From Fragilaria crotonensis (taxonomy: Eukaryota; Bacillariophyta; Fragilariophyceae; Fragilariales; Fragilariaceae): DNA of 59,155 nt. Below are positions 42,540 through 58,277 of this stretch, piece by piece (the first letter of the stretch is position 1; each line of letters begins with the position of its first letter). Below the pieces are notes generated by a model that saw only the letters and a program-made list of their open reading frames with translations, made no database searches and was not told the DNA's origin. A program made the position numbers and the translations under genes. Location: assembly GCA_022925895.1 (NCBI GenBank), contig JAKSYS010000380.1:1-59155 (forward strand). Direction: 5' to 3'.

Positions 42540-43270
42540 CGTGCGGCTACCCGAGTGTCGAGTCCGGCACTTGAATTCGGAGGTATCTCATGAACGTCTG
42601 GCTTCGCCACCTCCCACCATCTGAATCGTCTCACTTGGAACTCCGGCGAGGTGCATGGCCATCGCGGCGCCTGATCTGATCGAGTGAGTGCCGATGCCAC
42701 TCGCCTGAGGCCAAGCCTCTCCTCCCCTGCGAGTCGTCGCCATCCTGAGCTGCCTCAGTATGGACTTGGAAGAGATGTGTTGGGGTTCGTCTGAGTCCTG
42801 CGTCCTGACGGCGTTAATCTTCGGGTTCGTCCGTGAATGGCAATCGTAACTCCGTACCTCGTCGTCAGGTCCGCTAGCACGCGGACGGGGCAGATGTCCG
42901 TTTGTCCCTGCCTGTCGTTTCGATGCTGAGTCACTGTCGCGCCTTTGTCCCCGTTCTTTGTCGCCGGAAGGTGATCGACACGGTGTCGGCATTCTCCAGT
43001 TGTCCTCGGTCGGTTGTCTGCAGGTCCTGTCCCTTCTGTCGGAAACGAACGTCGTCCACTCTGATCACTGATGTCGTCCGTCGGCTTCCGACATCGGAAT
43101 ATTCGCACGACCTCATGGCGAAAAAGAACGCGACCACCACAAGTTGTCCAATAGCGATGTCCGTCTCGTTTCTTGCCCAGGATCGAACCTTTCAATCACC
43201 TCTAACGGCAGCGCCTGCTGTGGGTAGGTCCTGGGTCCTCGTCGGCGTAACGCTTCAGTTGTAAAGCCAG
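42540..43270 (-). pseudogene. DIRS tyrosine recombinase
   Basis: Spread over frames, the recombinase shows FFFAMRSCEYSDV (first Arg box), the HxxR box in THSIRSGAAMAMHLAGVP, and, after a CCC-run shift at 42613-42615, WRSQTFMRYLRIQV with the catalytic Tyr at about 42583-42585. Arg, His-x-x-Arg and Tyr stations are all present. Confidence 0.82.
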
Positions 43271-43799
43271 AAGGGGTCGAGTCGTCCGGCGGCGTCGTGG
43301 ATTGGGCTCTCAAATTTGTTAAGCCTGAAGGCCTGAGCCACACCGTCGAGGGTGGCACGAATGGAACCGGACAAGGGTCCATTGCCAGCTTCCTGAGGTT
43401 GTCGGGAGCGAAGCCGTCCGTCCCGAAGGGCGGCGGCGAAGCAGGCGAACGTTTCTGCTTTCGCTTCTCGTCCGAGTCCTTGAGAAAAGCTCCCTCCCGA
43501 CTCCGTCGATTCGTCCGAGGAATCTTTGTAACAGCGCCAGCTGCTATCGCGCTTGGCACGGGTTGAGTCGGCAAGAGCTGCGTTTTAGCAGCTGCAGCCA
43601 GCCTCCAATCTGCGAAATAAGGGCTGGCCGCAAGGGATGATCCTGAAGTTCTGTGGAACAAACGGTGAGCAGTTTTTCGTGATCAAGTCTGTCAGTGCCG
43701 CGTCGTCTAGAGCGAAATCTCGGAGAGCATGTCCGCCACCTTGTTCTCTTTCCCGGGAACCACTGCGTGTAGTGGTCTATCTCGTGCGTGAGGCAGAAA

Positions 43800-44100
43800 T
43801 CAGCGAACGCTCGGGCTATCGTCAGGTGAAGCGGACAATCGTCGTTGAAGTTCGACTTAGCAAGCCATCCCGCTGCTGAGGTGCTGTCTCCTGACTGAGC
43901 AGAACGTCTTCGTCCGTCCACGCGGCCCCTTCGTGGAATTCCACGATCATCCCCACAAAGGCAGCAAGGAACTCGAGAGTGTTTAGGGTCGCTCGCCCCA
44001 GCAGGTGCTCTGGTAGCTGATATCGCCACGCCAGGCCGCTCTTGAGGCAGTAGCCTCCGATGCCTTGTGGGCATGCGTCCCTCACTATGCGCGTCGGCCA
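43800..44100 (-). pseudogene. DIRS RNase H
   Basis: The frame reads DACPQGIGGYCLKSGLAWRY and LNTLEFLAAFVGMIVEFHEG, the first Asp and the Glu helix of a DIRS/Ty3-type RNase H. It follows the RT directly. Confidence 0.8.
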
Positions 44101-44189
44101 CCGGCAAACCAGCCTGTTGATCGAGATACCTCGCGACGCCTTCTGAAGGAAAGCCTTCCACAGAATCAGGTCGTCCAGTTGGGGTTTGG

Positions 44190-45310
44190 TCAGTCTCGCC
44201 TTCCCGGCCTGCTTCGAACGCCGCAGGCCTTGTATAGCCTTCCCATAAAGTGTCTTGCGTAAGGGATGACGTAGGCGGCGTGGCTAAAACGTCCGAGGGT
44301 CGTCTCTAGGTCTCTCGTCGTCACGAAGGCATGTCTGTGCGTCAGCATCCTGTCAACGGCTTGCGTCCAGCTCATGTGCTTATCGTGAGGCAGTGCGACG
44401 ACGAAGCGGCGTGTGTCCACGATCCATCCGAGGATCATCTTCCTCTCGGATGGTTTGGCCTCGGCCAGGAACTTTGGGATCGCAAGGATATCGTCTCTGG
44501 GAAAAGTCTCCTTAACCTCGGGGTCGCAAGGCCTCCCGACCAGGTGGAGCGCCAGCGGGATCGCGGCAGCGCTCTTTCTGCGTCGCGGGGTTGAAGGCCC
44601 CAAAATGTCGTCCAGGTAGCAGTCGAAGCGAGGGAGGTCGTCGTAGGGTGGATAGTTCACTGCGAAGTAGTCCGCCTTGCCGAAAACACTCATTTTGTCG
44701 ACCGACCCTTTGTCATTGTCCACTGCCCCTTCGGTGTCCAGGAGGTGCTGGTGCGGCGAGTGGTAGACGCTCGGATCCCAGTCGTCCCTGCGGACAAGGT
44801 CGTTTGCCAAGTCCGTGATCATCTCCGACACGTCGCTCCATTGCGATGGGTTTGGCGCCCACCGAACGTCATCCTCAGCGCCACTAACAGCAGGTCGTCG
44901 ATACTGTGCAGGACTTCATGGCTGTGGCTGCTTTGAGATGGATTCGTCTGTAGGCGGATTTGCAGTCGACCTTCGTCATCCAGATAGGCTCGTCTGGCCA
45001 TAGTTGGCGCAGGAACGAGATGTGGTACATGAGTCTGCTGAATGCTTTTCCGAAACGTGCTTCTGTCAGTTGGGATGTGTCCACGCGTTCATTTACGCTT
45101 CGCCCTGCCACTCCGCTCGGGCTGAATGACTGGTCATGTGTCAGTCGGAGTTTCTCTATTGAATTTCCTTTCGTCGATCGACGTCTGCGCGACCATCCCC
45201 AGAGGCGCGACCTCGCATCCCTTGATCTCTAAGGCGGCTTCTCGCGGCAGTGGTAGCTGCCAACCCTTGAGGCTTCGTCCTTCAGCATGGATATCAACTT
45301 TGCCTCGTGG
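44190..45310 (-). pseudogene. DIRS reverse transcriptase
   Basis: Three frames give GWQLPLPREAALEIKGCEVA, LGMVAQTSID, LRLTHDQSFS and AFSRLMYHISFLRQLWPDEP, then motif A MTKVDCKSAYRRIHL. Motif C is FDCYLDDILG (YLDD) with the thumb ALHLVGRPCDPE and KMILGWIVDTR following. YLDD and the QLPLPREAA start are typical of DIRS RTs. Confidence 0.87.
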
Positions 45311-48370: not shown

Positions 48371-48861
48371 AGTGTCTTTGTCGATTCGAGTTCGTTCGGA
48401 TTGTGAGCAATTTGTATCTTGTGTTGTGTTGTGTCGTGGTGTTCGTCTGTCTGTGTCTCGTGTTCGTCTGTCTGATGGCGACTGCCCGTCCTTTCCCGAT
48501 CTTCGGACATGCCAATCAGAAGGCGGAAAATGTTACAGTGACATATAAATGGTACAAGTTCACTATAATTGTTCCACCCCGTACTAAGTAATTTTGATGC
48601 GACAAGTTGCAAAATATTCTTACAATGTATGAGGTTTTATTTTTTAATCAATATATACTGTGGAATTGTAACATTTTGGTGTGATGTCCATATGTTTTTT
48701 TCCATGAATTGTTCTTGTGCCGGCGGATCAATAATTTATGTTCTATACAAGAAGATGATTGGGCTGTAATAGCTTATTTGCAAAGGTCACGTAATAATGT
48801 AAGTTGTGTTACTGGCCCGACATTCTTTAGTAGTAAAGCAGGAAGTATAAATCCGAATGTA
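48371..48861. other. AT-rich spacer between DIRS element and gene A
   Basis: Composition falls abruptly from GC-rich to AT-rich here. No gene or terminal repeat was recognised. Confidence 0.5.
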
Positions 48862-50459
48862 TTATAGAGAAATGCTACGTATGCATGATGCATTTATTGC
48901 ATCACATTTCGTTCCAAGCATCTTCATGTTCTTCATTAGCCTCCACCGTTGCCCGACGTGCCTGTTGACGCATATGTTTCTGCAAGACAAGTTGTCCTTT
49001 GGAGTTCCTTGCAAGTAGGTTAGTAACTCTTGCTCAGCAGCCTGCCCCTTGTCAGAGAGTCGATCGGCCATGATCTGCATGCAATTGATGTTAAATTTTC
49101 TGACACCTTCACGTGACCACCCTCCAAATTCCGCTTGTCCAACCTTCTTAGATGTATACTTGCCATGCATGCGTGGCATCTTAGCTGTCATTTCTGTTTT
49201 GGTACAGTTGTCCGAAAGGCGCATGCCACTTTTCCACATAATTTTCAAACAATAAAAGAGCAAATGCTTCATCACTAGTTGTGATATTCCCAGTGATGGT
49301 TCCCAGATATTTGGAATCTCTGTTGTTAAGTTTGCCAGCCACACAATCAATGAAGTTTTCAAAGAACCAGAAAAAGCGCACTTTTCGCGTGTGGTGGCAA
49401 AGTTGCGCATAGCACTGACTTCCTTGAGTGTATAAAAATCTGCGGTAAAATCACGCACGCCCAGGACATCATCGGTGGATACAATTCGACATTTGTCCAA
49501 CCAAATTAGATGTGCTGTAGAACCATCGGCAAAATGAGTTTTGTGTGGTTGGGCAGCGACCATGCTATGCAACTTACTTACCACTCACTATGTTGCCTCC
49601 GAGTTGGGCACACGTGCCTCGCTTTGTGTTGATAGCATCCATCATTGTAGAGCGATAAACATTGTAGAACCCTTTGAACTTGTCTTCATGCATTTGAAAC
49701 TCCATCATGGCAGTTTTGATTGCCATCGTGACCATTGTCTCATTAGTTGCAAACTTCAACTTTTTGAATAGCGTGTGATTGACAAACGTGTGGATGCGCT
49801 GCACTATATCCGGCTTATTCTTTGTCTTGGCTTTTCGATACGAGAGTGCTTTTGAAAACTGATCTTCCTCTGCTGTCACCAACAAGCAATAGGTGAGAAA
49901 TGTCAATGAAATCATGGAGGTTCTTCAGTGACTATCTCGTCGTTGGTACTTGCCATCATTTTCGAAAATGTTGTTATGGCATCCCGCGATGTCTTTGGCC
50001 ATGCCAAAGTTGCTGGTACTTATATCTGGCGTAACTTTGTGTTTTTTTGGAGCGTTCTGCCTCGCGCTGTTTTTCTTGAAGTTGTTTTCATCCTCGGCCA
50101 TTTCATCGTCATCGTCTTCGTCTGACGCAAAATCAACGTTTGCTAAAGTGTCCTCCGCGTCCTCTTCGTCATCTTCAAAGTTTTCATCCATGCTTGCCTT
50201 TTCTTCAGCCGCTGCTCTTTTGTTCTTGTTCTTCTCCATTTCAGCCATCAATTTGCGTTCTATAGAGTTCATGTGAAGCGAGACGGGCATTGCAGAGTTA
50301 GTCATTGTATTGATCTTCCAAAACCAAACAGGTCGCACAACAGTGAATAACACAACACATACTTTCTTCATTGCGCCTGTCGTTGATATGTGCTTGCTCC
50401 TCTGCCGTCAAAGCGTCAACCTTCTTCTTCTGCCTTAATGATCCTTGCCGTTTCGGCAT
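48862..50459 (-). CDS. Gene A: four-exon protein of unknown function
   Basis: Exons 50459-50363, 50259-49954, 49872-49582 and 49514-48862. Introns use AAA|GTATGT with TATAG|AAC, G|GCAAGT with GACAG|CAG (GC-AG type) and AGTG|GTAAGT with CTACAG|CAC. All three keep the frame, which strongly supports the model. The protein starts with a basic tail (MPKRQGSLRQKKK, NLS-like), then an acidic Asp/Glu region. A globular part follows: QRIHTFVNHTLFKKLKFATN, HLIWLDKCRIVSTDDVLGVR, FTADFYTLKEVSAMRNFATT. After a shift at A5 (49371-49375) comes WFFENFIDCVAG and TSDEAFALLLFENYVEKWHA. After a second at TTTT (49197-49200) come KYTSKKVGQAEFGGWSREGV and a helical end. Total is about 500 aa. I do not recognise the family; TSDEAFALL with a Trp-rich tail resembles repetitive proteins of diatom transposons. 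Confidence 0.7.
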
Positions 50460-50964
50460 CTTTGCTATTTTGTAAATTTATGAAGATTCGCGTATTATTC
50501 CTTTGGTTATATAATAGCAGGCCATGCCTTTGATCATGAAGATGTATAATACCATAAGACGAATTTGAATGGTATACTACATAGGTGTTTTGCTGATACA
50601 CCATGGTGTATCTTCTTAGTACCTTTTGGGTCATGTCCTTAAGTAATCAGCATTCAAATTTAATAGGAATGTATATTTTTGCCACTCGGAACATATCGTG
50701 ACCCGTATAACAGCATCATTTTGGAAAGGCATTTTGTACCCATTATCATACGGAGGCGGTGTATCTCATGCGATTATAAACAATCATTTTTCGACAATTG
50801 TGATACCTAAAACAATGATGAGGAGCAGTAATGATGTATGTATGCATCACTATTCGGTAAGCCGTTTGGCGCTTGCGTTCGTTGTTTAAAAAGCATTTGC
50901 CACCACTTTCTTATTTTGTACTCCGTACGACCTATTGTGACTACGGAGTACTATTTATTTTGGT
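50460..50964. promoter_or_regulatory. Divergent intergenic region between gene A and gene B
   Basis: An AT-rich stretch of about 500 bp between the ATG of gene A (-) and the start of gene B (+). It presumably holds both promoters. No specific motif can be named. Confidence 0.4.
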
Positions 50965-51543
50965 TTGCATGCAACCATGGAAGAAGAAAACCCTTTCTGC
51001 TGTGGCGAATGGACTCCAAAAGATCGAAACTACCCACCCACTGCCGCAATGCTTCCCCCAGTTATTGCCGAAGATGTGCATGATTACAACATGTTTCCTA
51101 TGCCGGATTGTGTGACCAACGCGCAAGAAATTGTCACATCCTGGCATGAAGATCATCGTCACCTGGTTGCGCACGCTATTGTGGCACAAAAGAAACATAA
51201 ATTTGGGAATCCTATGTCGCCTGCAGAAATGACGCTCATTCGCACTGAGGCCCGACAAAATTATGCAGTTGCCAAAGGGCTGCTGACTGTTTCCGAAGCT
51301 GCTCCGTTGTCTGTTTATGACATGTTTCCATTGCCGGCATACACTGCATTGGCCCTAGACATTATGCGCGATTGGCATCAAGACAAAGAAAACCTTCAAC
51401 TGCATGCCATGGCGGTTCAAAAACAGTACAACATTGTCTCGCCAATGTCTGTTGCGCAACGTGCCTTTGTAAAGAAATGTTCCGAGGACAACTATGCTTT
51501 TATTCAATTAGCATTTGTGGACTCCCAAGAAGATTGGTTGTAA
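50965..51543 (+). CDS. Gene B: tandem-duplicated 192-aa protein
   Basis: An intact frame. After a short N-terminus (EENPFCCGEWTPKDRN) come two copies of a ~70-residue unit: YNMFPMPDCVTNAQEIVTSW ... HLVAHAIVAQKKHKFGNPMS, and YDMFPLPAYTALALDIMRDW ... LQLHAMAVQKQYNIVSPMS. Each holds MFP(M/L)P, a conserved Trp-His, a HA-x-x-x-QK motif, a PMS turn and a closing (N/D)YA segment. I do not recognise the unit. The ATG at 50965 or 50977 could start. The gene is convergent with the polyprotein gene, with only 37 bp between the stops. Confidence 0.75.
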   Translation: MHATMEEENPFCCGEWTPKDRNYPPTAAMLPPVIAEDVHDYNMFPMPDCVTNAQEIVTSWHEDHRHLVAHAIVAQKKHKFGNPMSPAEMTLIRTEARQNYAVAKGLLTVSEAAPLSVYDMFPLPAYTALALDIMRDWHQDKENLQLHAMAVQKQYNIVSPMSVAQRAFVKKCSEDNYAFIQLAFVDSQEDWL

Positions 51544-51580
51544 TTCTTTTAAACTACCCACACAACGTCTAACCTCAGTA

Positions 51581-53179
51581 TTACTTTTTAATAGTTCTAC
51601 AATAAGCGGGCACAAGCGTCATTTTGGCCCTGAGTTTTTTCTGCTTGCCCATGTACCGAAATATGTATCCACGACGAAAGTCAATGAATGTGCTGGGTTG
51701 GTCTTCGGTCGAGGTGCAATAATCTAGGCCTTCCTGGCACAAAGGGACAGCAATCGTTTCATTCGCATCATATATGAACCCCCCATGGATAGTTATGGCA
51801 TGGCTGCAGTTACCATCTGACGCACTGAGGACCGCTAGGAACACACTTTTTTTGTCCAATTCTGTCCTCCAGTTAAAGACAAGCTTTTTGCGGTGCATCT
51901 CAATCCAGCTTGGCAGCACCTCCTTTGCATAGATTGCAACCTTCTCCAAAGCATTTACGGCTCCTCCAGCCACCCGTGTTTTTCCAAACTGTGCGATTTG
52001 CCTCGCTTCATCGATGAAACCTAAATTATGAAACGCTGAGGCCAATGAATTCGAAACGCACAGATCTTCACTGTTTCCTTGAACAAATTGTATTGTTGGA
52101 GCTCCACAGACCTTTAGGTGCGGATGGCGATGAAGCGAAGACACTTTGCAATCGCCAACTGGAATGTCCACAAACCCTTTTTTCGTCCGTCGTAGTTCCT
52201 CTAGGAATTTTGCAGAAAAGTTTTCCACCACCAATGGGTCAGTTTCACAGAGTTTTAATGTGTTCCCATCAGAAAATTTTACTCGCCAATGTGCGTCACT
52301 GACAACTTGTTTTTGTTTGTGCTGTTGTGTCGGCAGCCTTGAAGCAGCAAAAGCCTGACTAGAAGCATTGCGCTTTCCTGTCATCACCACATTTATAGTG
52401 GGCGCCTCTGCTCTCATTTTATGCACATCAAGAATGTACCGAGTTTGTCGGGCGACAAACTTTATCCGCCAAATTGTTCTGTCATGTACTTTCAGTTTCA
52501 TATCCAATGGGATGCTAACAAAACCATCGCTGTCCAGGTTTTTGGCATTCTTAACAGCATCCAATGTCATGCCAGCCCTGTCTTTTACCCAATCGTCTGT
52601 TACTTTGATTTCGTCTTTCACCGTTTTAAGGCGAACCTTATTTGGTTTCGTTTGGGTTGGCACCTTGTTCACTTGTTTGGTATTGTTTGCTTCTCTGATT
52701 ACCCGTTGGGATTCCACTCGCGCAACGAAAACGTTTCTTTTATTGTCGAACTTTATTCCCGTTACCGTTTCTGGTTCATGAAATGTTCTATCTTTTGGAA
52801 CAACAAAATATCCACCCTCCACATCCATATCCAGTATGTGTTGCAAAACGTCCTCAGCAAAGCCAGCTTCATGAAGGACCCATTCTTCAGGGACTTCAAA
52901 TTCATCTTCGCGTTTAACCCACATTACTTTCTTCGTCTGTTTGTCTTGTTGTTGATGCTGGTATGTGCATCGTGCAGTAAACTTGTTGGTTGACCTGTTG
53001 AATCGAACACCAGTAACCATTTGAGGATCGGTCAAAAGGAATTCTTTCTCAAATTGTTGTCGAAAATACCTTCTTTCTTTTTTCATTGCCGTTATCAAAT
53101 CTGAATAGTATTGTTTGATAATTGCTTTGTCCTTATCCGACTTCACCATTTTTTTGGCTTTCGCGTCCCAATTCGCCAA
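51581..53179 (-). CDS. Giant protein, C-terminal part: repeat module and papain-like cysteine peptidase domain
   Basis: The open frame of 532 codons contains about three related repeats of ~85 aa, for instance VTGVRFNRSTNKFTARCTY ... GGYFVVPKD and VTGIKFDNKRNVFVARVES ... DGFVSIPLD, then WRVKFSDGNTLKLCETDP ... KGFVDIPVGD. The C-terminal domain reads SEDLCVSNSLASAFHNLGF (Cys near residue 374), SHAITIHGGFIYDANE (His near 460, Asp 471 or Asn 473), an order consistent with a Cys-His-Asp peptidase of papain-like or OTU-like fold. The family is not identified and activity is inferred. The frame joins upstream to 53133-53492 at AAA 53178-53180. It probably continues the protein beginning at 56476. 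Confidence 0.6.
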   Translation of the reverse strand: MANWDAKAKKMVKSDKDKAIIKQYYSDLITAMKKERRYFRQQFEKEFLLTDPQMVTGVRFNRSTNKFTARCTYQHQQQDKQTKKVMWVKREDEFEVPEEWVLHEAGFAEDVLQHILDMDVEGGYFVVPKDRTFHEPETVTGIKFDNKRNVFVARVESQRVIREANNTKQVNKVPTQTKPNKVRLKTVKDEIKVTDDWVKDRAGMTLDAVKNAKNLDSDGFVSIPLDMKLKVHDRTIWRIKFVARQTRYILDVHKMRAEAPTINVVMTGKRNASSQAFAASRLPTQQHKQKQVVSDAHWRVKFSDGNTLKLCETDPLVVENFSAKFLEELRRTKKGFVDIPVGDCKVSSLHRHPHLKVCGAPTIQFVQGNSEDLCVSNSLASAFHNLGFIDEARQIAQFGKTRVAGGAVNALEKVAIYAKEVLPSWIEMHRKKLVFNWRTELDKKSVFLAVLSASDGNCSHAITIHGGFIYDANETIAVPLCQEGLDYCTSTEDQPSTFIDFRRGYIFRYMGKQKKLRAKMTLVPAYCRTIKK

Positions 53180-53689
53180 AGTAAGTCAAGTTCATGCTAT
53201 GTTCGGCATTAGAACTCCATTTCCATTCGACGAAGCGACTCTCCACATACTCAGCCATTGCGTCATTGTCAACACGCTTATTGCCCACACCCTTAAATGC
53301 TTTCCACTGTTTATGATAGTAAGACAATGCACCTTCTGACAATTCGCAGGCTCTTTCCACCGTTTCGGATTCCACCATCTGATTGTCTTTGTCATCGTCA
53401 TCTCCAAAGAACGACTTTGGGTCGCCCTTTGTTTTTTTTTCCAATTCGGCTTCCATGTGTTTGGTTCTAACTTTTCTGGTACATCTAACCAAATAGGGGC
53501 GAGAACTTTTGTAACACCTTGTGCTCTCGTATTTGATGCATCGTCATTAGCATTTGACGAGGATTTGTTTGGCACAATGCTTTTGCGCGCTTTTTTTCTT
53601 TCGTTTAGTGTTGAGAACACAACTTTGGAATCCAAAAAATGAATTCGGCTTTTGGTTAGCCAGCACTGTAGGTATCTTTCTGCCACCAC
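53133..53689 (-). CDS. Giant protein, linker segment (two frames)
   Basis: Two frames connect the Ulp1 part with the C-terminal part. The first (53689-53441) has DSKVVFSTLNERKKARKSIV and KVLAPIWLDVPEKLEP. The second (to 53133) has KGDPKSFFGDDDDKDNQMV and HKQWKAFKGVGNKRVDNDA. They join at T9 on the plus strand (53432-53440), reading WKPNWKKKTKGDPKSFF, and at A6 (53634-53639) with the Ulp1 frame, reading NSFFLDSKVVFSTL. No domain recognised; it is Lys- and Asp-rich. Confidence 0.55.
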
Positions 53690-55049
53690 TTTCCAATGTC
53701 CTCTTCCTGCCCGCAGATGGTGTTGAAGATATTGTGGGCGTCAGCATGGGCGGCTTGGGTTTTGTAATGGGGCCAACAGAGAGCAATCGCGCTTTCTTCG
53801 TTGAAGATACGTCCGAATCTGAATCAAACAGATTAAAAGTATCTGGTTCGTTTGCAATTGATGGTATCGTTTGTGATTGTTGTTGATTTTCTGACCGCGA
53901 TTTCTGTTCCTCAAATTCAAACAACAAATTCAAATTTACGGCGCCTTGCTGTGATTGTGAAACAAGTGTGGCGGTACTCATATTCAGCAATGATTCGGCC
54001 GCTGCCCTTCCTTTTTCCTTTATATTATGTTCGCCAGGGGACACGTCTTCCTCTCTGTCATTGTCGACTGGGAAACCGAGTGCACGCTTAACACGGAAAA
54101 AAGGTGCATCATGTTGCACCTTACCATACAACATTTGCTGTTTAATGGTTGCCTGGTGGTTAAATGCTGCCAAACGATCGATGAGTGTAAACCATTCTTT
54201 GCGAAGGACGGAGAGATAGTCTTCCTGCTTTAAAAGCTCAACATCATTGGTTTGAGAAAGCCTTTCTAGCATTTCTTTAGGAAATTTGATGTACGTTTCA
54301 TTTTCGTGTTCGCAGAATTGCAAATTTGTACCCTTGGCAGAAAACGACTCGCGAAAAGGTGAATAATCATTATGCTTGCTCTTGGTCACATTTTGCATTA
54401 TAATGGCAATTGCAGCAATGAGGCCGAACCCACAGTTGTACAAATCGTTTTGCTGTGGCAATGAAAAACCTTCCACCACTCGAACCGAAGGAAATCTTTC
54501 GGTACCCTTCAGCGAATGTTTCGACCCACTCTTGAATGGATCGAACCATAACATGCCGTCAGACCCTAGAGTTGCCAGCTGGTGGTGCTGCTTGATGCTG
54601 TACAAAAAGTTAAGAAACCATATCACGTCAAGAGAATCATGGTCACGTTTACCGTTGGGTTCGCTTGAACAATAACGAAAAAAGCATGGCTGTAACATAC
54701 TACTAGCTCTTTCTTCCTCCTTCATGTGAACAATGCTTCCCGCATTAAAAACAAAAACGCAATACCAATGCCGACCTGAGCACTTTGGGAAAACCAACAA
54801 TTTCTTCTCGAGCATTGTGGGATTCGGTTCAATCACATTTTTCAACAAAAGTTGGATGAGCTTGTTGTATTCCATTTCAATATCATCACCCATGCCGATG
54901 ATGCTTTTGTGTGGGCTCAGGTGACATGCTAAACATTTCTCGTGAACAGTTGCAGCATTGCCAATCGTCTCCACGAAACTCAATGGAATTACTGTGACGT
55001 CGTCCGCATATCTGCCATCAGAGAAAAGGATCGCCAGCATCATTTCCAT
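53547..55049 (-). CDS. Giant protein, Ulp1/SENP-like (C48) protease domain
   Basis: A Ulp1-type cysteine protease, a family that removes SUMO or related modifiers and is frequent in plant and protist DNA transposons. In the 500-codon frame His94 lies in CSGRHWYCVFVF, Asp138 in KRDHDSLDVIWFLNFLYSI, Gln199/200 in SLPQQNDLYNCGFG and Cys206 in the same motif. All four catalytic stations are present at the usual spacing. The beginning, ILFSDGRYADDVTVIPLSF, corresponds to the entry strand of the domain, so the frame starts inside the domain and not at a natural N-terminus. After the domain comes Ser/Pro- and Lys-rich sequence. The ATG at 55049 overlaps the upstream GNAT frame by 10 bp; restoring one base at CCC 55052-55054 fuses the two. 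Confidence 0.83.
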   Translation of the reverse strand: MEMMLAILFSDGRYADDVTVIPLSFVETIGNAATVHEKCLACHLSPHKSIIGMGDDIEMEYNKLIQLLLKNVIEPNPTMLEKKLLVFPKCSGRHWYCVFVFNAGSIVHMKEEERASSMLQPCFFRYCSSEPNGKRDHDSLDVIWFLNFLYSIKQHHQLATLGSDGMLWFDPFKSGSKHSLKGTERFPSVRVVEGFSLPQQNDLYNCGFGLIAAIAIIMQNVTKSKHNDYSPFRESFSAKGTNLQFCEHENETYIKFPKEMLERLSQTNDVELLKQEDYLSVLRKEWFTLIDRLAAFNHQATIKQQMLYGKVQHDAPFFRVKRALGFPVDNDREEDVSPGEHNIKEKGRAAAESLLNMSTATLVSQSQQGAVNLNLLFEFEEQKSRSENQQQSQTIPSIANEPDTFNLFDSDSDVSSTKKARLLSVGPITKPKPPMLTPTISSTPSAGRKRTLESGGRKIPTVLANQKPNSFFGFQSCVLNTKRKKKSAQKHCAKQILVKC

Positions 55050-56476
55050 TTCCCAGTTGCCATATGAGATGATTCATTGTGCATCAAACGGCGCTTTGAT
55101 GTCATTTCACCTTTGAGCAATAATGATGTCGCGGGCAGCAGTGGATTTAGAGGCATGGGGAAGAAGCGTGTAATTAAAGGCAGGTTCTTGAAACACGCCG
55201 CGACAATGAGTTGTTCCTCAGGCTGGAACCGGGTGTTTGTTTCAATTGGTGGGTACCTACACCACATAAATGAATCCTCATTTTGTTCACCAAAGCCTGC
55301 TTTTAAAGGTGAGTCAGGCCCCTCGTCAATGTCAATAACATCATTCTTGGGGCAAACATGAAAGTGACCTGGCTGTAGCATGTAGAGCACCGGTGATGGG
55401 CTTGTCGCATTGTCATGAAGCCAAGTAAAGCCAGCATCGTCTTCTTCTTCAACACTTTGTCTGATTGACAAGGGTAGAGAATGGTATGCATCCGGGCTGT
55501 TGGATTGATCAAAGGTTTTTTGGTTCAATTTAACAAATCCGCACGCTTCATAAAATCTTCTTTTAGTAGGGTTGTCTGTGCATTGTGAATAGATGGTTAC
55601 TTTCTGTACTCCAGACAAGGGGAGACCGTCAAATCCACCAGAAAGAGCACTTTTTTGTCCATCATTGACACACAGCTTGATGACCGAGAGAAGCATAAAC
55701 GTTCCAAATCGTAAACGCATCCATGATTCAATGTTTCCCGGTTTAACTTTCTTGGTTGCTTGAGATACTGCTAACCATGTTACGAGTGCACAACACGATT
55801 CGTTCGTCTTTCCTTGACGAAAGGTAACTGCGGACACTATTCCAAATTTTGGAAGATTGCAAACGGACTTTGGTGGCTGCTTCGATTTGTCGAAGCGGAA
55901 GGCGATGATCATAATGGACTGATCGCATTGCACACTGTATTTGATTCTCTGGGCATCAATGTCGTTATGTATCAAGTTTCTTTGATAAAATGCCGCCAGC
56001 TTTTCTTGTGCCCAAGCTAGTAGCTTATTGTTAACAGGAATTCCAACGTTCCTGTTGTTGCGTGGTCGTTGTTGCGGATTTATGAATATGATTCGATAAT
56101 CCCAACACCATTCAGTGCCGGGGATGATGGATGCATCAAAAATCTTTGAAAACGGTAGTTTCTCGAACCAGGAATGAAAACACTTTAGAGGGGCTTCGTA
56201 CATCTCCGGTTTTTCATTTTCCGACAAGGTGAGAAACTTTTGCACAGCCATTTTTGGGTCACACCACTGATATGGTGTTCCAATTTTGCGACACCTGTTG
56301 ATTAAGTCTCCGAAATCAACTTTGGGATTGAAAGTGTAGATAACTTCCACAGGTAAAAGTGACCGAGGCTTTAGAGGAGTGATTGGTATACGGAAGGTTG
56401 ACATATTGCGCTCCTTCCTTGACGCATTGGCAGCAGCTTCATCACAATTATTCTCCGATGCCTTCAAAATATCCAT
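55040..56476 (-). CDS. Giant protein, N-terminal part: GNAT-like acetyltransferase domain
   Basis: The frame of 478 codons begins at ATG 56476 with an acidic lead-in. A GNAT-like fold is at about residues 190-320: strand IMIIAFRF, GIVSAVTFR, CALVTWLAVS, the acetyl-CoA loop region RLRFGTFMLLSVIKLC (254-270), strand VTIYSQCT, and the closing NPTKRRFYEACGFV (302-315). The N...RRFYEACGF signature is typical of GNAT motif B. The loop RLRFGT is a degenerate form of R-x-x-G-x-G/A, so binding of acetyl-CoA is uncertain. C-terminal to it is a ~150-residue region of unknown type. The final residues run into the Ulp1 frame. Confidence 0.7.
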   Translation of the reverse strand: MDILKASENNCDEAAANASRKERNMSTFRIPITPLKPRSLLPVEVIYTFNPKVDFGDLINRCRKIGTPYQWCDPKMAVQKFLTLSENEKPEMYEAPLKCFHSWFEKLPFSKIFDASIIPGTEWCWDYRIIFINPQQRPRNNRNVGIPVNNKLLAWAQEKLAAFYQRNLIHNDIDAQRIKYSVQCDQSIMIIAFRFDKSKQPPKSVCNLPKFGIVSAVTFRQGKTNESCCALVTWLAVSQATKKVKPGNIESWMRLRFGTFMLLSVIKLCVNDGQKSALSGGFDGLPLSGVQKVTIYSQCTDNPTKRRFYEACGFVKLNQKTFDQSNSPDAYHSLPLSIRQSVEEEDDAGFTWLHDNATSPSPVLYMLQPGHFHVCPKNDVIDIDEGPDSPLKAGFGEQNEDSFMWCRYPPIETNTRFQPEEQLIVAACFKNLPLITRFFPMPLNPLLPATSLLLKGEMTSKRRLMHNESSHMATGKWK

Positions 56477-57049: not shown

Positions 57050-58277
57050 ATGATGGAGGACGACATTGAAATGATGCTGCTCTTTTTGCTGTTCAAACAG
57101 CATACCAGGAAGAATGGTATTTATGTGCATTCCAGGTACAGAAAGACCTACTTAAAGAAGCTTAAGTCCGTGCAACGTCGTTTGCGCCAGCGCCGCATTC
57201 CTCGCGTCGCACTCCAAGATGCAACTCACAGCGCTTGGAAGACTTTGTTTCACTCGGGCAATGATCAGGCCCTCATCACATTGACTGGCTTGGATTTCGA
57301 AACATTCAATTGGCTGAGTCCAAAGTTTTCCGCCCTGTACGACACGCACTCACCATTTGTTGACCCTGACGGTCGCATTGTTCCCCTTCGTAATCTGCCG
57401 GTCAACCAAGGAGGAAGACCAAGGATGCTGTCAGGGGCGGACTGCCTTGGACTTTGCCTTGCATGGACCAGGACTAGGGGGTTCAATTATGGTATTGCAG
57501 ATCATCTTTGGAATGGCTGGAACACCAGTCAGTATGTACCTTCGCTTTGGTCGCCGAATTCTGATTGAGGTTCTAAAAGCTGAGCCCCTTGCCGCCATTA
57601 AGACGCCGAGCATTGAAATGATCCGCACCTTCCAAGAGGTTATCCGGCAGAAGCATCCAGCCTTAGATGGGGTGTGGTGTTGCATGGATGGCTTGAAGTT
57701 GTACTTACAGCAGGCCGGTGATTCCAATACTCAAAACAGGTTTTACAATGGCTGGACTTATGACCACTACGTGACATCTGTCTTTGTGTTCTGCCCCGAT
57801 GGCACAATTCCTATCTGCTGCTACAATCTTCCAGGGTCCATTCATGATAGCATGGTGGCTGAATGGGGAAATATTTACCCCAAATTGGAGAAAGTGTACA
57901 ACACGGTTGGTGGTCGGTGTGCTGTTGATTCTGCTTTCTCATTTCAGCGATATCCTTTTTTTGTCAAATCGGGTCAGCAACATCCTGTCACCAATAGTTA
58001 TAGAGAGTTTTCTCGACAACTTCAAATCAATAAGGAAGCAACTGCAATGAGACAGTCTGCTGAGTGGGGGTATGAGGGCAATTCAATCGTCATTTCCACG
58101 TCTCAAGGATCGTTTTACCTACGAAGAAAATGGAGAGAGGAAACTCATATTGAAGATGATGATTCTTCTCTACAATCTTCGTGCCCGGAAGGTTGGTATC
58201 AATCAAATAAGGAACACTTACATGCCAGCATTGAATATCAATGCAAACCGAACTTTGATATAAGATATACTTTTTGA
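57050..58277 (+). CDS. PIF/Harbinger-type DDE transposase, one frameshift
   Basis: A DDE_Tnp_4-like transposase. The first frame (57050 to about 57480) has LTGLDFETFNWLSPKFSALY, GGRPRMLSGADCLGLCLAWT. The second (to 58277) has GMAGTPVSMYLRFGRRIL, VWCCMDGLKLYLQQ (catalytic Asp), WTYDHYVTSVFVFCPDGTIP, NLPGSIHDSMVAEWG (second Asp), AVDSAFSF and RQSAEWGYEGN (candidate final Glu). The frames join if the G5 run 57477-57481 is G4, giving TRGSIMVLQIIFGMAG. All catalytic stations survive. Family members usually act with a separate SANT/Myb-like protein, which is the neighbour at 58366. Confidence 0.87.

Follow-up and report, generated by a model that had tools for sequence, protein, structure and literature searches.

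A long accessory gene with GNAT-like, Ulp1-like and cysteine-peptidase-like domains, probably carried by Plavaka-type DNA transposons of the diatom Fragilaria crotonensis

The window analysed here, 59,155 nucleotides of contig JAKSYS010000380.1 in the Fragilaria crotonensis assembly GCA_022925895.1 (contig C314 in our numbering), carries between positions 51581 and 56476 a run of minus-strand frames, which open reading frame analysis showed to overlap or abut. These frames were confirmed to be pieces of one gene, whose long product seems to join a GNAT-like domain, a Ulp1-like domain and a second cysteine-peptidase-like domain. With a probability of about 0.6, this is the large accessory (second) gene of a cut-and-paste DNA transposon of the Plavaka type (CACTA/EnSpm-related, CMCT), of which the window holds a partial, frame-broken copy. 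The assignment to Plavaka-like transposons follows from bounded elements with CATCTAA/TTAGATG ends, target duplications and a converging Plavaka-type transposase. The frames, and the motif that lies in the first of them, are as follows.

55040..56476, minus strand: GNAT-like N-terminal frame, 478 amino acids when read alone; its family matches Acetyltransf_10 and NAA50.
55703..55726, minus strand: position of the acetyl-CoA-binding motif, reading SWMRLRFG, placed by alignment with relatives.
53547..55049, minus strand: Ulp1/C48-like frame, 500 amino acids, placed by residue alignments and weak C48 matches.
53192..53740, minus strand: linker frame 1, 182 amino acids from stop to stop, poorly conserved, read through in the C253 copy.
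53133..53543, minus strand: linker frame 2, 136 amino acids from stop to stop, charged, with a W-x-W block that appears conserved by eye.
51581..53179, minus strand: C-terminal frame, 532 amino acids, cysteine-peptidase-like domain, placed by residue alignments.

A preliminary description of the window had proposed one long protein in place of four genes, and this was borne out when the window peptides flanking each junction were compared with the open frames of at least 100 amino acids in loci L001–L042. Junction 1, between the GNAT-like and Ulp1-like parts, lies inside a single open frame in 13 copies, each on a contig of its own, and junction 4, between the linker and the C-terminal part, does so in 12 copies. 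Junctions 2 and 3 sit in the poorly conserved linker, and only C253, at 98.8% identity to the window, has frames that run across both; the left side of junction 2 matched no family copy besides C253 among these frames, while the left side of junction 3 was matched by the sister copies C733 and C839, in which the two sides stand in different frames, and a break near junction 3 is thus common to the window, C733 and C839. Since the counterparts of junctions 1 and 4 both fall within each of the two frames, all four junction positions are bridged by single frames in L001 (C253, 885 amino acids) and L002 (C449, 1,411 amino acids), and the domains are accordingly not always separate genes in homologues. 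The linker and the C-terminal domain share one frame of 702 amino acids in C2 and of 821 amino acids in C259, and further long frames of 1,144 (L003), 1,124 (L004) and 1,077 (L022) amino acids were observed. A programmed frameshift is not favoured, as neither C253 nor C449 is interrupted at any of the four positions and both have their breaks at other places; the case against it is less firm near junction 3, where C733 and C839 share a break with the window.

The gene belongs to a repeated family. In the genome searched (62.1 Mb, 881 contigs), the Ulp1-like, GNAT-like and C-terminal pieces gave 86, 72 and 97 matches, clustering into 66, 61 and 69 loci, respectively, once additional pieces belonging to one locus had been removed by hand; these counts are minimum values. 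The Ulp1-like part lies upstream on the same strand at 59 of the 69 C-terminal loci (it was not found at the other 10), the Ulp1-like and GNAT-like parts are both upstream at 49/69, a transposase converges within 6 kb at 53/69, and all parts together with the convergent transposase occur at 37/69. The three parts thus keep their order on one strand at 49 loci, which is not due to chance and agrees with the domain order first described. Four independent genes in chance succession, as the separate frames of the present assembly might suggest, are practically ruled out by this fixed order and by the single frames that span all four junction positions in C253 and in C449. Seen from the other gene, some part of the accessory gene is convergent at 57 or more of the 70 transposase loci. 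No convergent transposase was found at 16 of the 69 C-terminal loci, the window and C253 among these, and at three of the 69 (on C312, C317 and C687) the relationship is distant and confined to the C-terminal domain.

Sharp element ends, 5'-CATCTAA...TTAGATG-3', emerge in three subfamilies when near-identical copies with unlike flanking sequence are compared, and seven bounded insertions represent elements of 11.6–12.2 kb: C140, C259 and C407 (12.1 kb, 99.7–99.8% identity); C449 and C686 (11.6 kb, 95.5% identity); and C454 and C2 (12.2 kb, 99.7% identity). Target duplications of 2 bp match in six of the seven, namely TT in C140, TA in C259, CA in C449, AA in C686, TT in C454 and TA in C2, with C407 the sole mismatch. 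Inside these elements the long accessory gene runs towards a transposase gene on the opposite strand. The Plavaka profile PF18759 was over the cut-off in three of seven convergent-gene frames (L011, E 1.7e-12; L004, E 6.5e-10; L003, E 1.1e-14), was matched by relatives such as C140, C259, C407, C872 and C874, and matched none of 14 control genomes when genomes were scanned; C449 and C686 have no PF18759 listing, and their transposase was detected with the transposase protein as query. A second kind of Plavaka element was observed on C8 (L042), whose convergent gene, with frames of 486 and 208 amino acids, does not resemble the GNAT-Ulp1 gene and matched nothing in Pfam.

A virus origin was rejected, as viral contigs yielded no relatives of the C-terminal domain and none of the GNAT-Ulp1 protein in a search limited to close relatives; nor did bacterial or archaeal sequences yield any relative of the C-terminal domain. 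One IMG/VR record (L041) encodes a Plavaka transposase 50% identical to that of the present elements beside phage-like text, with piggyBac-like text visible by eye, and none of the accessory gene parts in the 11.5 kb examined; it is apparently a chimeric contig.

Several observations weigh against this reading. None of the copies examined is open from end to end, and the full length of about 1,500–1,650 amino acids is therefore an estimate; no transposase was detected in the window, and none converges beside C253. What the window holds is a rearranged part of an element and not a complete one: the segment that it shares with C253 (48515–55455, described below) has different flanks on both sides in the two contigs, and at the position equivalent to 55455 C253 switches to other sequence, with a frame matching the Plavaka transposase just upstream of it on the same strand as the accessory gene. 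With no transposase detected nearby and a degenerate GNAT motif, the window copy is unlikely to be active. The Plavaka-like setting, the possible assembly indels and the partial nature of the element were missed in the preliminary description, in which the single protein and its domain order were correctly recognised.

Evidence for maintenance of the gene came from ratios of nonsynonymous to synonymous substitution (dN/dS), estimated by the Nei-Gojobori method in 17 comparisons covering 7,424 codons. The ratio lay between 0.10 and 0.26 in 14 of the 17: 0.20–0.26 for the GNAT part (4/4 pairs); 0.16–0.25 for the Ulp1-like part (5/5 pairs); 0.14 for the linker in one of two pairs; 0.13 in C872/C140 (C-terminal part) and in C131/C106 (linker plus C-terminal part); and 0.10–0.12 for the transposase (2/2 pairs). 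No stop codon occurs in the 7,424 codons. The low ratios and the stop-free codons indicate that the long gene is maintained in the copies compared, where, judged by these substitutions, it is under purifying selection. Less favourable are the second linker pair, at 0.48, the C-terminal part of the window/C253 pair, at 0.57 on three changes, and the C-terminal part of C449/C686, which has zero changes. Divergence is patchy along the elements, as if segments had been exchanged between copies.

The frame breaks themselves may well be assembly errors. Pairwise over 12.1 kb, C140, C259 and C407 differ by 7, 12 and 6 substitutions against 17, 19 and 24 gap events, and C454/C2 over 12.2 kb by 4 mismatches against 23 gap openings, whereas the older pair C449/C686 shows 396 substitutions against 80 gap events; this excess of indels in the youngest pairs indicates residual assembly error. 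Of the one-base gaps between the window and C253, 11 of 13 fall within homopolymers of at least three bases. Host genes appear to be affected as well: silicon transporters gave 19 matches in this genome, the best at E 4e-193, which supports a diatom source (among 14 control genomes a single one matched, under the cut-off), and two of these genes, at C349:33494-34817 and C637:18844-20192, change frame at adjoining profile positions, which suggests assembly indels.

The alternative, that the breaks are real mutations in decaying pseudogenes, the window copy among them, is unlikely, yet it draws on several facts: nearly all examined copies are broken; in-frame stops occur in 25 of the 86 Ulp1-part matches (by our count), so that many copies have truly decayed; the window/C253 pair is not brand new, with 50 substitutions and 20 gap events; the break near junction 3 recurs in C733 and C839; and the GNAT motif of the window is degenerate. 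On the other side stand the indel-rich youngest pairs, set beside the substitution-rich older one, the absence of stops and low dN/dS in the pairs compared, and the adjoining frame switches in the two silicon transporter genes.

The three domains exhibited different levels of similarity to known families. In GNAT proteins, motif A (R/Q-x-x-G-x-G/A) binds acetyl-CoA, and motif B is also diagnostic. Acetyltransf_10 was matched by six of nine trimmed family members (best E 1.7e-6), the whole L002 protein reaching only E 0.036, and the family profile found NAA50 as its best match in the PDB (E 4e-4), across the R-R-x-G-x-G helix and the F-Y-x-x-x-G-F strand. Relatives read W-R-R-x-G-x-G at the motif; the window copy has Arg for the first Gly of R-x-x-G-x-G and, taken alone, gave no match with a GNAT profile. 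The GNAT-like domain first described is thus supported, from these profile and motif matches, for the family, which has the diagnostic motifs, and not for the window copy, whose motif lacks the first Gly. NAA50, an N-terminal acetyltransferase, is the closest solved structure and resembles the family in motifs A and B; the match is limited to a 56-position core, and the family differs in a long extra N-terminal part.

Ulp1/C48 peptidases use a His-Asp-Cys triad with a Gln as oxyanion residue. In the window the corresponding positions are His at 54768-54770, Cys at 54669-54671 (the apparent C48 Asp site), Gln at 54450-54452 and Cys at 54432-54434; His is conserved in 10/10 aligned copies and Gln and Cys in at least 9/10, and His-Trp, Gln and Cys are kept as in C48. 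These residues speak for the Ulp1 assignment of the preliminary description, and four results against it. Peptidase_C48 was found in three of ten members, with a best E of 0.003 and 17.9 bits under a cut-off of 20.7; comparison of profiles with the C48 proteins of this genome gave a probability of 1.3 over 29 columns around the His; the Ulp1-like part had no C48 match in the PDB; and the catalytic Asp seems to be replaced by Cys in 10/10 aligned copies, an invariant FFRYCS block setting Cys where the C48 proteins of the genome have YDS (register by eye). The assignment is therefore plausible yet weak. A genome-wide scan for C48 gave 44 matches, none at loci of the accessory-gene family. At L040, L035 and L037, different proteins have a C48 domain that scores above the cut-off, and at L040 the domain continues, by eye, into MULE-type transposase-like text.

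Papain-like (clan CA) peptidases have catalytic Gln, Cys, His and Asn/Asp in that order, and the same order is present in the C-terminal domain. The window residues are Gln 52079-52081, Cys 52058-52060, His 51800-51802, Asp 51767-51769 and Asn 51761-51763, corresponding to Q367, C374, H460, D471 and N473, which are invariant in 15/15 rows of an alignment that takes in distant relatives at 25–26% identity and in which some rows are near-identical. The papain-like call of the preliminary description rests on this pattern and stands as a prediction; no meaningful Pfam or PDB match was obtained for the domain, which counts against it. Distant relatives of the domain were also observed at L031, L032 and L033, in frames of 459–591 amino acids with no GNAT or Ulp1 part found nearby; L032 and L033 show by eye a Cys/His-rich PHD-like stretch upstream. 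In the linker, motifs resembling SUMO-interaction motifs were enriched in four of six linkers (p 0.0002 to 0.04). These four belong to related copies, and the window and L002 linkers have no such motifs; so unevenly spread, the motifs give no support for SUMO binding.

From these domains a role can be tentatively proposed. The accessory protein would travel with the transposase and act in the nucleus; its two hydrolase-like domains might remove SUMO or ubiquitin-like modifiers from host silencing or repair proteins, or from the transposase, and the acetyltransferase-like domain might, at the element, add acetyl groups to histones or to protein termini, so that the element would evade silencing or complete transposition. 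The likeliest role, though a tentative one, is that the protein frees silencing or repair proteins of ubiquitin-like modifiers and acetylates as a secondary function. The protein might then, with similar reserve, be a single-chain editor of modifications in diatom Plavaka-like transposons, combining GNAT acetylation with two cysteine hydrolases for anti-silencing or for licensing of post-excision repair.

Two other functions are less probable. The Ulp1-like and C-terminal domains could be non-catalytic binding modules that tether the transposase to SUMO- or ubiquitin-marked chromatin, as the low C48 similarity and the Cys that apparently stands in for the triad Asp would allow; this is doubtful, as mere binding would not require the residues that are kept, namely His, Gln and Cys in the Ulp1-like domain and Q, C, H, D and N in the C-terminal one. 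Still less likely is a polyprotein from which the cysteine-peptidase domains would release several functional proteins by cleavage: one chain with two peptidase-like domains and a poorly conserved linker would suit it, but the Ulp1-like domain is nearer to de-modifying enzymes than to processing proteases.

The remaining features of the window are as follows.

48515..55455, minus strand: segment common to the window and C253 at 98.8% identity, taking in the greater part of the accessory gene and, behind it, the small-protein gene.
48862-50407, minus strand: small-protein gene of no known family, behind the C-terminal domain in the window and in C253.
57050-58277, plus strand: PIF/Harbinger-type transposase in two overlapping frames, with DDE_Tnp_4 at E 1.8e-8 in one of them.
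42588-45228, minus strand: frame-broken retroelement of DIRS-like layout, with Phage_integrase at E 0.0088, under the cut-off.

The 116-amino-acid core of the small-protein gene has 90 matches in the genome, one of them in the C8 Plavaka element (L042:8300-9853), where it stands at a different place; a relative at L003:8048-9289 was recognised by eye only. The PIF/Harbinger-type transposase directly adjoins the 5' end of the accessory gene. The retroelement shows by eye reverse-transcriptase-like text (KVDCKSAYRR, YLDDI), for which no Pfam match was found, and a tyrosine-recombinase-like end. Rfam and tRNA scans of the window found nothing, the accessory-gene frames scanned singly gave no significant Pfam match, and little else could be learned from Pfam scans of pieces of the window and of frames nearby.

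The gene is a real one in a known setting, that of a DNA transposon that has picked up an accessory gene, and a literature search found no published description of the GNAT-Ulp1-cysteine peptidase architecture. Transposons repeatedly acquire enzymes that may counter silencing, such as the TET/JBP and SET chromatin enzymes acquired by DNA transposons (PMC12730594) and the Ulp1 and OTU domains described in PMC2836005. A conserved multi-copy gene of this kind in an algal element would offer a test case of whether SUMO or ubiquitin removal and acetylation aid a transposon. It also serves as a warning for annotation, as long transposon genes are probably interrupted in this assembly by indels that remain in it.

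The closest known system is Plavaka, and within it the PlavakaB lineage, which shares the PF18759 transposase, the CATC..GATG ends and the 2-bp duplications found here. In PMC12730594, Plavaka is grouped with CACTA/EnSpm in the CMCT clade, and PlavakaB has CATCA..TGATG ends, duplications of 2 or 3 bp and room for an extra gene encoding an enzyme linked to silencing marks. The diatom elements differ from those described there in the fifth base of their ends (CATCTAA here, CATCA there), and in being algal with GNAT, Ulp1-like and cysteine-peptidase-like domains, whereas PlavakaB occurs in fungi with TET/JBP. The occurrence of Plavaka in an alga has a precedent in the EnSpm-Plavaka elements named from a green alga in PMC12633428. 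Ginger1 and Mutator elements with Ulp1 or OTU likewise carry a domain of the de-SUMOylating or de-ubiquitinating type on a cut-and-paste element; according to PMC2836005, Ulp1, OTU and C19 domains occur in several DNA transposons, a part for the ubiquitin pathway in transposition is suggested, and Ginger1 has such domains in the C-terminal portion of its transposase, whereas here the Ulp1-like domain shares a gene of its own, convergent with the transposase, with GNAT and another peptidase-like domain. VANC of the VANDAL elements, described in PMC10398659 as a sequence-specific anti-silencing protein, is similarly an accessory transposon protein; the likeness is one of described role, which for the diatom protein is only proposed.

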